The notes below the pieces were generated by a model. It did not search any database, was not told the DNA's origin, and saw nothing but the letters and a program-made list of their open reading frames with translations. A stretch of DNA of 20,283 nt. It comes from a bacterium. Its GTDB lineage: Bacteria; JAMCPX01. Numbering within the stretch: the stretch's first letter is position 1; each line of letters starts with the position of its first letter. Positions 7,159-9,659 of the stretch are shown here, in pieces. The stretch lies in the NCBI GenBank assembly GCA_021789095.1, contig JAJYJX010000019.1, positions 1 through 20,283 of the forward strand, given 5' to 3'. The position numbers and the translations under genes were made by a program.

Positions 7159-8754
7159 TCAAACCGGGTTCACCGGCTCGACCATGTATGAAAGCTGGGA
7201 CACAATGCGCCTCAGGATACTGACGATTTCTATGTGCAGTGCGCTTGTCTCGATGGACTCCCTGTATCCCTTGTTCAACCTTTCAAGGTGGTGTTTCAAC
7301 AGAAGCAGTTCCGTCTGTGAAAGCTGCTTCTTTCTCTCTGCAAAACTTTCGCTGTCGGTCTTCTCGCTCTCTATCGCGGATATAACGTCCTGATAGAATT
7401 TCATAACATCCTGAAAGTATTTTTTGATCTCCTGCCATCCCTCTTCCGAGAGCCTGTACTGTCCCGTGGTTTTCTTTACGATCTCCGAAGACAGGTTTTG
7501 GTTTATTATGTCGGATACGACTTCAAGGTTCTTGAGATATGTTACGAGCCCGAACTGCTGTGCCGCATTATCCTCCGAGAGGGTTTTTGATGCGGATGCA
7601 TGTGCGAGGTACAGTTTTATATGAGAGGCAAGCCTCTCTACGGCAATGTTTTTTGCGTTCAGCTCATTGATGTTCCACAGGTCGTTATGGGACAGGGACG
7701 TGTACGAAATCTCGAGCATCCCATAGATATATTCTGCGAGCCTTATAATCTCTTTCAATGCATAGTGAAAGGCAATGGACGGCGTTGACAGGGCAGATTC
7801 GTCAAGGTACAGCGGCGTGTCCGGCAACTGGAATTCCCTGCCAATCCTTATATAACGTATCAACAATTTTGACAGAGGGGATGCGAGCGGTGCAAGCACG
7901 AATGTAATGAGAACGTTGAACAACGTATGGGCGTTCGCGATCTGGTGAGAGACATTGTGCGACGTCGACTCTGCAAGCAGCATGAACGGCTTATAGAACA
8001 GAAGCACTATGATTACCCCTGCTATCTTGAACAGCAGGTGGATCGCGGCCACCCGCTTTCCGTTGGAATCGGCTTTATACATGGCAAAGAGTGCTGTAGA
8101 ACAGGTCCCGATGTTGGCCCCCAGAATGATAGGTATTGCGTGGTCAAGGCCCAGGATACCGGTATTGGCGAATGAAATGGCAAGCCCAATGGTTGCAGCG
8201 CTGCTTTGTATGATCGACGTGAGCACAAGAGATGAGAGAAAAGCCGCGTACGGGTTATTCAGTATCAGCCTGCTTACATCAAGCTGCCCGGGACTGGCAA
8301 TGTCCATAACCGTTGTAAAGAATTGCATGCTGAACAGGATAAAGCCCAGTCCTGTGAAAAAGCTTGATGCGGCCTTTGCCCTCTGGTCCTTGATAAGGAT
8401 GTTGATTAAAAAGCCCGCCGCTATAAGGAAAAGTCCAAGGTCATACAGGTTGAACGATATGAGCTGGACCGTCAATGTCGACCCTATATCAGCGCCCAGG
8501 ATGATGCCCATCGCACCTTTCAGGTCTATCAGTCTGGATGTCGCAAAACCCATGAGCATGACCACGGGCGTATTGCTGTTCTGGATCAAAATAGTGACGA
8601 CACCGCCAATGAGGATAGCCCACAGCACGCTCCTGGAGGCAAGGTGCAGGAACCTTTTTATCTGCTCACTGAATAATTTGCTCAGACCTGCATTTATGAG
8701 ATCAATGCCGTAGAGGAAAAGCGCAAGGCCTGCTACTGCCGTAATGAGGAACAT
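7159..8754 (-). CDS. Na/Pi cotransporter family protein with PhoU-like tail
   Basis: This 531-residue inner-membrane protein belongs to the NptA/YjbB (PNaS) family of sodium-dependent phosphate carriers. The first 300 residues are hydrophobic and hold the family's inverted repeat: ILIQNSNTPVVM with GADIGST (58-93) in the first half, and SIIQSSAATIGLA with GANIGTC (183-218) in the second. The soluble remainder (about 325-525) is helical and PhoU-like. In family members the QSS motif of each half lines the transport path; here the first half reads QNSN rather than QSSS. Direction of phosphate movement is unsettled for bacterial members (YjbB is linked to export). The start codon overlaps the stop of the phosphodiesterase gene by one base (TAATG), and GGAGA just before it can serve as ribosome site. 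It is the last gene of the long minus-strand run. Confidence 0.9.
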   Translation of the reverse strand: MFLITAVAGLALFLYGIDLINAGLSKLFSEQIKRFLHLASRSVLWAILIGGVVTILIQNSNTPVVMLMGFATSRLIDLKGAMGIILGADIGSTLTVQLISFNLYDLGLFLIAAGFLINILIKDQRAKAASSFFTGLGFILFSMQFFTTVMDIASPGQLDVSRLILNNPYAAFLSSLVLTSIIQSSAATIGLAISFANTGILGLDHAIPIILGANIGTCSTALFAMYKADSNGKRVAAIHLLFKIAGVIIVLLFYKPFMLLAESTSHNVSHQIANAHTLFNVLITFVLAPLASPLSKLLIRYIRIGREFQLPDTPLYLDESALSTPSIAFHYALKEIIRLAEYIYGMLEISYTSLSHNDLWNINELNAKNIAVERLASHIKLYLAHASASKTLSEDNAAQQFGLVTYLKNLEVVSDIINQNLSSEIVKKTTGQYRLSEEGWQEIKKYFQDVMKFYQDVISAIESEKTDSESFAERKKQLSQTELLLLKHHLERLNKGYRESIETSALHIEIVSILRRIVSQLSYMVEPVNPV

Positions 8755-9659
8755 TATCTCCCGGCACTCCGGGCCGTCTCCTGCGCTATGACCTTGAGCG
8801 CAACATCGGGGTAATTGGTAAAGAAGCCGTCAACACCTGTATCCGTAAGCGTTTTTAAAAGTTCTTCATCGTTGACCGTATAGACGTTCAACCTCAGACC
8901 GCTGTCGTGCACTTTCGAAATCACGGCACTGTCTGCAAGCAGATAGGACATATTTATTGTGTCAGCGCTAAGCCCTTTCGCCGTCTCAATATAAAAAGAC
9001 AGCGTGTGTAATCCCTTACTAAAGGGTGGGGAAGAGACTTCAAATCCCCCCTCTCCCCCCTTTACTAAAGGGGGCGGGGTACCCAAGCGGGGCTTGGGTC
9101 GGGGATTAACCAGCGAGTCCGCCCTGTCATGCCCGTAAACCGGGATCTCCGGGGAAAGTTCGTCGACGAGCAGGGCAACCTTTACATCATTTGACAGATT
9201 CCTCATCTGCTTTACTGCATCGATATTGAAGGAAGAAACAATGACTTCTTTCATTAAGCTATGCTTTTTGATGAGCCTAAATACCTCTTCGCAAAGTCTG
9301 TACAGAACAGACGGGTCGGGCGACTGCGACTTTAATTCTATATTCATCGCAATTTTATGGCCTATGACAGCCAGCAGTTCTTCCAGGATCGGGATGTTCA
9401 CAGGCTTTCCGTCAGCAGTGTCATGAAATGTGTATTGTCTTATTTCGTCCATTTTAAGCGCAGACACGCTTTTATCTGTATTGAACAGCCTGCCGAGCGT
9501 AAAATCATGGAATACCACAACCCCGCCGTCAGAGGTAAGCTGGACATCGAACTCGACAGCGTCTGCTTTCATCTTTATCGCGAGCTGGAATGACGGGATT
9601 GTGTTTTCAATTGCATAGCCTGATGCCCCCCTGTGAGCATAAACAACAGGCCTTTTCAT
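8754..9659 (-). CDS. ugpQ: Glycerophosphodiester phosphodiesterase with repeat-derived insert
   Basis: This 301-residue GDPD-family enzyme hydrolyses glycerophosphodiesters to glycerol 3-phosphate and an alcohol. The TIM-barrel motifs are present: HRGASGYAIENT (His9, Arg10), VEFDVQLT (Glu36, Asp38), FHD (His51), MNIELK (Glu108), LNVYTVND and a GVDGFFTNYP end, so the active site looks intact. There is no signal peptide, so it is probably cytosolic like UgpQ; the symbol is by similarity. Residues 184-217 (from NPRPKPRLGTPPPLVKGG on) are foreign to the family and are encoded by a 100-bp palindromic element described separately; they fall between the strand ending VALLVDELS and the helix before GLSADTINMSY. 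The gene overlaps ftsY upstream by four bases (ATGA) and the transporter downstream by one, fitting a joint role in phosphate handling. Confidence 0.92.
   Translation of the reverse strand: MKRPVVYAHRGASGYAIENTIPSFQLAIKMKADAVEFDVQLTSDGGVVVFHDFTLGRLFNTDKSVSALKMDEIRQYTFHDTADGKPVNIPILEELLAVIGHKIAMNIELKSQSPDPSVLYRLCEEVFRLIKKHSLMKEVIVSSFNIDAVKQMRNLSNDVKVALLVDELSPEIPVYGHDRADSLVNPRPKPRLGTPPPLVKGGEGGFEVSSPPFSKGLHTLSFYIETAKGLSADTINMSYLLADSAVISKVHDSGLRLNVYTVNDEELLKTLTDTGVDGFFTNYPDVALKVIAQETARSAGR
9009..9108. repeat. Intragenic palindromic repeat element inside the GDPD gene
   Basis: The 100-bp stretch is bounded by a perfect 7-bp inverted repeat, TAATCCC (9009-9015) and GGGATTA (9102-9108). Inside are a perfect 8-bp stem CCCCCTTT-ACT-AAAGGGGG (9056-9074), a perfect 8-bp stem ACCCAAGC-GGG-GCTTGGGT (9081-9099) and a shorter, related CCCTTACTAAAGGG (9013-9026). 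Base composition differs sharply from the surroundings, with runs of C and G. On the gene's strand only the frame used is open, the other two meet stops; it yields NPRPKPRLGTPPPLVKGGEG and so on, a peptide type I recognise as the product of a dispersed repeat common in deltaproteobacterial and related genomes. No second copy occurs in this window. Confidence 0.8.

Follow-up and report, generated by a model that had tools for sequence, protein, structure and literature searches.

The GDPD open reading frame and its insert

The window analysed here is a stretch of 20,283 nt from a bacterial contig (JAJYJX010000019.1) of the source genome, termed G000. One open reading frame encodes a glycerophosphodiester phosphodiesterase (GDPD) and contains a segment that is foreign to the gene. 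The features of the locus are listed in Table 1. The closest solved fold to the GDPD product is that of B. subtilis GlpQ (5t91), and other GDPD structures match as well. The nearest relatives are from MAGs labelled "bacterium" or Deltaproteobacteria, and there was no Rickettsia match among them.

Table 1. Positions of features in the window, and of a related repeat on other contigs of the source genome
Feature	Position	Strand	Remarks
GDPD gene (glycerophosphodiester phosphodiesterase, 301 aa), host of the insert	8754..9659	-	Pfam PF03009, 1e-45
Inserted stretch, 106 bp if CGCTG is a target duplication	9005..9110	-	missing in all orthologues
Terminal inverted repeat TAATCCC	9009..9015	+	AATCCC...GGGATT ends recur in most aligned copies
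Terminal inverted repeat GGGATTA	9102..9108	+	AATCCC...GGGATT ends recur in most aligned copies
Left unit TAATCCCTTACTAAAGGGTGGGGAAGAGACTTCA, extra, missing in most copies	9009..9042	+	shared arrangement in two G004 copies
Inner 65-bp element AATCCCC...GGGGATT	9043..9107	+	unit common to other copies
Palindrome A, CCCCCTTTACTAAAGGGGG	9056..9074	+	perfect 9-bp stem CCCCCTTTA/TAAAGGGGG, 1-nt centre
Hairpin B, CGGGGTACCCAAGCGGGGCTTGGGTCGGG	9075..9103	+	present without palindrome A in other family repeats
Candidate target-site duplication, downstream copy (CGCTG on coding strand)	9000..9004	.	ACGCTG conserved there in several orthologues
Candidate target-site duplication, upstream copy (CGCTG on coding strand)	9111..9115	.	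flank comparison
TTAACCC-ended repeat, G000	C143:4763-5009, C5:2943-3188, C149:8141-8270, C156:7401-7489, C59:12227-12449		

GDPD genes from eight genomes of the family were aligned, of which one is truncated upstream and seven are comparable; genes of more distant bacteria were also compared. The seven family orthologues display 56–67% identity over the N-terminal part. Five further loci (L068–L071 and L074) have the same sequences as those in G004, G001, G008, G002 and G005 and are thus not independent evidence. In the orthologues, a strand ending in ...LLVDEL (or an equivalent) is followed by a short variable linker and then by TLSFYI..TA. None of the seven comparable family genes has extra residues at this site, and the aligned distant homologues are also without them. 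Judged against the orthologues, positions 9009–9108 are an inserted repeat, as the original prediction had proposed; no GDPD orthologue carries the insert residues as native sequence.

The insert together with one copy of CGCTG amounts to 111 bp, i.e. 37 codons (residues 183–219, LVNPRPKPRLGTPPPLVKGGEGGFEVSSPPFSKGLHT). Deletion of these 111 bp gives ...RADSLSFYIETA, which is in frame and aligns with ...TLSFYI..TA of the orthologues. The addition is therefore in frame, as had been predicted, and is slightly longer than the approximately 34 residues first estimated. ACGCTG is native at this site in five orthologues. A flanking repeat of at least 5 bp, with the ends free to slide, is expected by chance in about 8% of cases, and CGCTG is thus a candidate target duplication only. 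The lpxB copy described below has a possible flanking duplication of just GAC, judged by eye.

Residues H9, R10, E36, D38, H51, E108 and K110, conserved across the GDPD alignment, are all retained. The AlphaFold model of the protein with its insert shows a confident barrel (mean pLDDT 86.6). Values below 50 are found at residues 174–214 only, a segment flanked by a strand (160–165) and a helix (220–229). The 37 residues of the insert, rich in Pro and Gly, most likely form a disordered loop that links a strand of the core to the helix after it. Alignment and model thus agree with the proposal that the element occupies a loop and leaves the catalytic residues intact, and the enzyme is presumed to be still working. 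In barrels of the GDPD type, a loop that follows a strand sits on the catalytic face. Some effect on substrate access is therefore possible.

Structure of the element

The matching 7-bp ends noted previously are present (Table 1). Two perfect 8-bp stems had also been described; both were found, one being slightly better than described (the 9-bp stem of palindrome A) and the other, in hairpin B, having 8 bp (ACCCAAGC/GCTTGGGT, positions 9081–9099). The composition differs from that of the surrounding gene, as was claimed: the GC content is 57% for the element and 65% for the inner 65 bp vs 47.5% for the rest of the GDPD gene. The single-stranded DNA fold of positions 9009–9108 is better than that of 200 out of 200 dinucleotide shuffles (z = -3.9), and the RNA fold of the insert has a z of -2.5 (-47.9 kcal/mol).

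By comparison of copies, the element is a mosaic of palindrome A, a second mobile hairpin (B) and the 34-bp left unit. Palindrome A occurs alone in many copies. Hairpin B (positions 64–95 of the query) is matched alone in many genomes, and it is also found in repeats of ~100–250 bp in the source genome, where altered stems are still paired (ACCCATGC/GCATGGGT and ACCCATCC/GGATGGGT). The arrangement with the left unit is shared with G004:C198 (query positions 1–66) and G004:C168 (query positions 1–69). The inner element shows 89% identity to the lpxB copy of the same genome and 92% to G004:C389.

Other repeats were seen in these genomes. A repeat of ~108 bp with long inverted ends, TTTACCCCGTTAGAAAG...CTTTCTAACGGGGTTTA, is present on G000 contigs C139, C141, C153 and C59 (e.g. 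C139:5738-5846); the copies seen are all intergenic and it is a good MITE candidate. A repeat of ~100–250 bp with ends TTAACCC..AAAAATGCA includes hairpin B with a changed stem (G000, Table 1). Another repeat, GAACGGGTGTTCGCCGCAATCC..., exceeds 100 bp, likewise includes hairpin B and is found at loci L055, L056, L062 and L063 (G001, G003 and G008). Intergenic palindromes of the form CTGGATTCC...GGAATGACA, often paired, are abundant in the sampled G000 contigs (e.g. C140:8575-8656).

Reading frames of the repeat

On the coding strand, one of the three frames is open through the insert and this is the GDPD frame. The opposite strand has exactly one open frame, starting at 9010. This is as originally described. 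When the same bases are shuffled, two open frames out of six come up more often than any other number (1724 of 5000 shuffles), thus no special design is needed to account for them.

The open frames of the repeat read PPLVKGG and PPFTKGG, and the third has a stop codon (TAA or TAG) in the palindrome. At least two of the reading frames are used across the host genes, and the frame in lpxB of the source genome differs from that in the GDPD gene. The use of different frames of one repeat in different genes shows that the added peptide is not fixed, which argues that the inserts are tolerated filler rather than a selected peptide. Translation of the GDPD insert is inferred from its open frame and, most likely, the ribosome reads through; tryptic peptides expected from this frame include LGTPPPLVK and GGEGGFEVSSPPFSK.

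Copies in related genomes

The palindrome A pattern matched 3 places in the source genome, or 4 if two mismatches are allowed so as to include the lpxB copy, and 2–16 places in each of eight other genomes of the family, while the reversed control pattern gave none in the nine genomes. With the lpxB copy there are 47 places; one of these is native sequence that matches by chance, which leaves ~46 copies in the nine genomes. The chance match is a supposed copy in an acyl-CoA dehydrogenase gene of G005, which was discarded. The further copies that the original prediction called for are thus present, both within and between genes. Most appear to be intergenic. The four copies in the source genome are in the GDPD gene, in lpxB, and at two places outside or upstream of genes. 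Outside the family, a few genomes (notably G009 and G038) have weaker matches to the palindrome A module. Plasmids, phages and viral contigs gave no match to the element. There is no Rfam family for it, and the single Rfam match (mir-320, E-value = 0.18) is attributed to chance.

Clear in-frame cases of palindrome A number six; these were detected as open frames through the repeat, so that gene-breaking copies would be missed and the in-frame share is not an independent test. Left out of this number are open frames through copies that lie ahead of several genes (efflux, uppS, kinase, pilin and others), as these frames begin in front of the likely start codon. In a sample of the source genome (20 contigs, 315 kb, from an assembly of 203 contigs), several repeat families are present and ~90% of the sequence is coding, yet the single dispersed repeat in a called gene is that in an ABC ATPase. 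Insertion into genes is thus strongly selected against, and the survivors are those where the frame is kept. With 6 of ~46 copies clearly in genes at this coding density, and with the shuffling result above, the suggestion of an element built for survival within genes is not borne out.

In-frame copies in other genes

The six cases are GDPD and lpxB in the source genome, and lpxB, an ABC ATPase, a periplasmic binding protein and truA in G004.

In lpxB of the source genome (Pfam LpxB, 1.1e-91), the insert KSPTQASLGYPAPFTKRGIGGI... follows ...AIKSQLLKD. The lpxB gene of G004 has an insert at the same position and in the same frame, and in G001 the insert at this site is more decayed and consists, perhaps, of two units; the inserts of G004 and G001 are older and decayed and are still open. 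No lpxB insert was found in G002, G003, G005, G006, G007 or G008. A single old insertion followed by simple decay conflicts with the divergences. Third positions of the G000 and G004 inserts differ by 27% vs 54% in the gene body. The G001 insert differs from that of G004 at 56% of bases, and the gene at 19%. In addition, lpxB of G008 is ~97% identical to that of G001 across the gene, yet it is without the insert. In the tree of LpxB and GDPD, the source genome is outside of the group of G004, G001, G008 and G006. Independent insertions, refreshing by related copies, loss or local recombination, on more than one occasion, are therefore needed. The filled locus of G001 (L113) and the empty one of G008 (L190) diverge sharply over the 20 residues that surround the site, and this contrast is likely the result of local recombination or loss.

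The ABC ATPase of G004 (L194, G004:C305) has an in-frame insert of 54 residues that is a mixture of repeats. At the same position, the orthologous ABC ATPase of G000 (L195, G000:C59:7306-8409) carries a different insert of 53 residues with at least three kinds of repeat. The closest related ABC ATPases in G002, G003, G005, G006 and G009, which may be paralogues, are without either insert. The G000 gene also has a second short in-frame repeat, FTPHPTSPTRGEE, nearer its C-terminus.

In the periplasmic binding protein of G004, the insert lies just behind the signal peptide and is missing in five relatives. In truA of G004, the inserted residues are left out of the matches to relatives; G001 and G003 are without the insert, and the G001 sequence joins directly across the insertion site.

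Certain loops in this lineage might act as safe harbours, where further unrelated repeats land after a first one has been tolerated in frame and a conserved protein builds up a species-specific domain made only of mobile hairpins. This is offered tentatively and is rather less likely than not. Examples would be the ABC ATPase mixtures in G000 and G004, and lpxB, where a single unit in G000 contrasts with what seem to be two in G001.

Origin of the insert

At the sequence level, the insertion relative to orthologues, the kept frame, the family of copies and the further in-frame cases are established. It is highly probable that a short palindromic repeat was inserted in the GDPD gene with the frame kept and the gene unbroken, that it is likely read through, and that the family has done likewise elsewhere. 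In the proposed process, a non-autonomous MITE/REP-like repeat with separable hairpin modules and AATCCC...GGGATT ends, presumably mobilised by a transposase acting in trans, would have inserted in the GDPD gene. As the addition of 111 bp keeps the frame and one frame of the repeat in the GDPD orientation is free of stops, the gene would not be broken. The ribosome would read straight through and the protein would gain a disordered loop of 37 residues. Members of the same family would enter other genes and stay where the frame is kept and the loop is tolerant; elsewhere they would be found mostly between genes.

The GDPD gene could instead have been inactivated and be in decay, its open frame being a matter of luck. 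The insert is known from a single genome, and a stretch of this length inserted at random could well be open. However, the 301 codons are intact, the conserved residues are all present and the predicted fold is confident, and the same event is seen in lpxB, whose ready loss would not be expected. Decay of the gene is therefore considered unlikely. In a very improbable reading, the repeat remains in the mRNA and the ribosome hops over it, as with the byps/hop elements of yeast mitochondria or T4 gene 60. The strong RNA hairpins of the insert (-47.9 kcal/mol) would suit hopping, but a skipped element needs neither to keep a frame nor to avoid stop codons. The insert is a multiple of three in length, the decayed lpxB inserts of G004 and G001 remain open, and where at least two frames of the repeat are used, each is the open one.

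The assembly is fragmented (203 contigs), and metagenome contigs could have been wrongly joined at a repeat. A wrong join would unite unrelated sequence, whereas the flanks of this insert are the two halves of one gene, which follow each other correctly and in frame; an assembly error is hardly credible. Insertion of a putatively mobile repeat that is tolerated in a loop is the preferred explanation.

Comparison with known repeat families

The element resembles MITEs in its terminal inverted repeats, TAATCCC/GGGATTA, with AATCCC...GGGATT recurring in the copies. REP/REPIN sequences, which are associated with RAYT (Y1) transposases, are short, modular and mosaic hairpins (PMC3733652, PMC3116915). 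The element also consists of short modular hairpins, and Y1 transposase genes exist in these genomes. However, both hairpins here are without the basal GTAG or CGTC tag of REP hairpins. No element hairpin was found near 30 Y1 loci (up to ~1.5 kb on each side), and Y1 transposases were for this reason rejected as mobilisers.

ERIC, the 107-bp Correia element and YPAL are small non-autonomous repeats, mostly intergenic, whose open frames can fuse into genes (Delihas, PMC2229807). The present element is likewise small, non-autonomous and mostly intergenic, with in-frame fusions. It differs in sequence and host, and those elements have TA ends with a duplication whereas here there is a weak 5-bp candidate.

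The closest parallel in principle, as originally suggested, is with the Rickettsia palindromic elements (RPE) of Ogata, Claverie and colleagues. These are palindromic repeats of ~100–150 bp with terminal inverted repeats, present in several copies that lie partly between genes and partly, in frame, within conserved genes for proteins (reviews: PMC2229807, PMC10969869). A product that bears an RPE can stay active, as in the case of gmk (PMC2229807). The element described here is also palindromic, 100 bp long, with 7-bp inverted ends and a strong fold, and it is in frame within several unrelated genes (GDPD, lpxB, ABC ATPase, periplasmic binding protein and truA). It differs in that the host lineage is not Rickettsia, that in-gene copies are a small minority, and that the element is a mosaic of hairpins which also move apart. 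It works like an RPE but is assigned, on the basis of its host, to a different family.

The best classification is as a new miniature palindromic repeat family of an uncultured lineage, members of which occasionally reside in frame within genes. The kind of event is already known; the protein-invading palindromic repeats are extended to a new family in a lineage unrelated to Rickettsia, where empty orthologous sites delimit the insertions. The loops of the ABC ATPase and of lpxB provide a testable model for disordered segments growing from mobile DNA.
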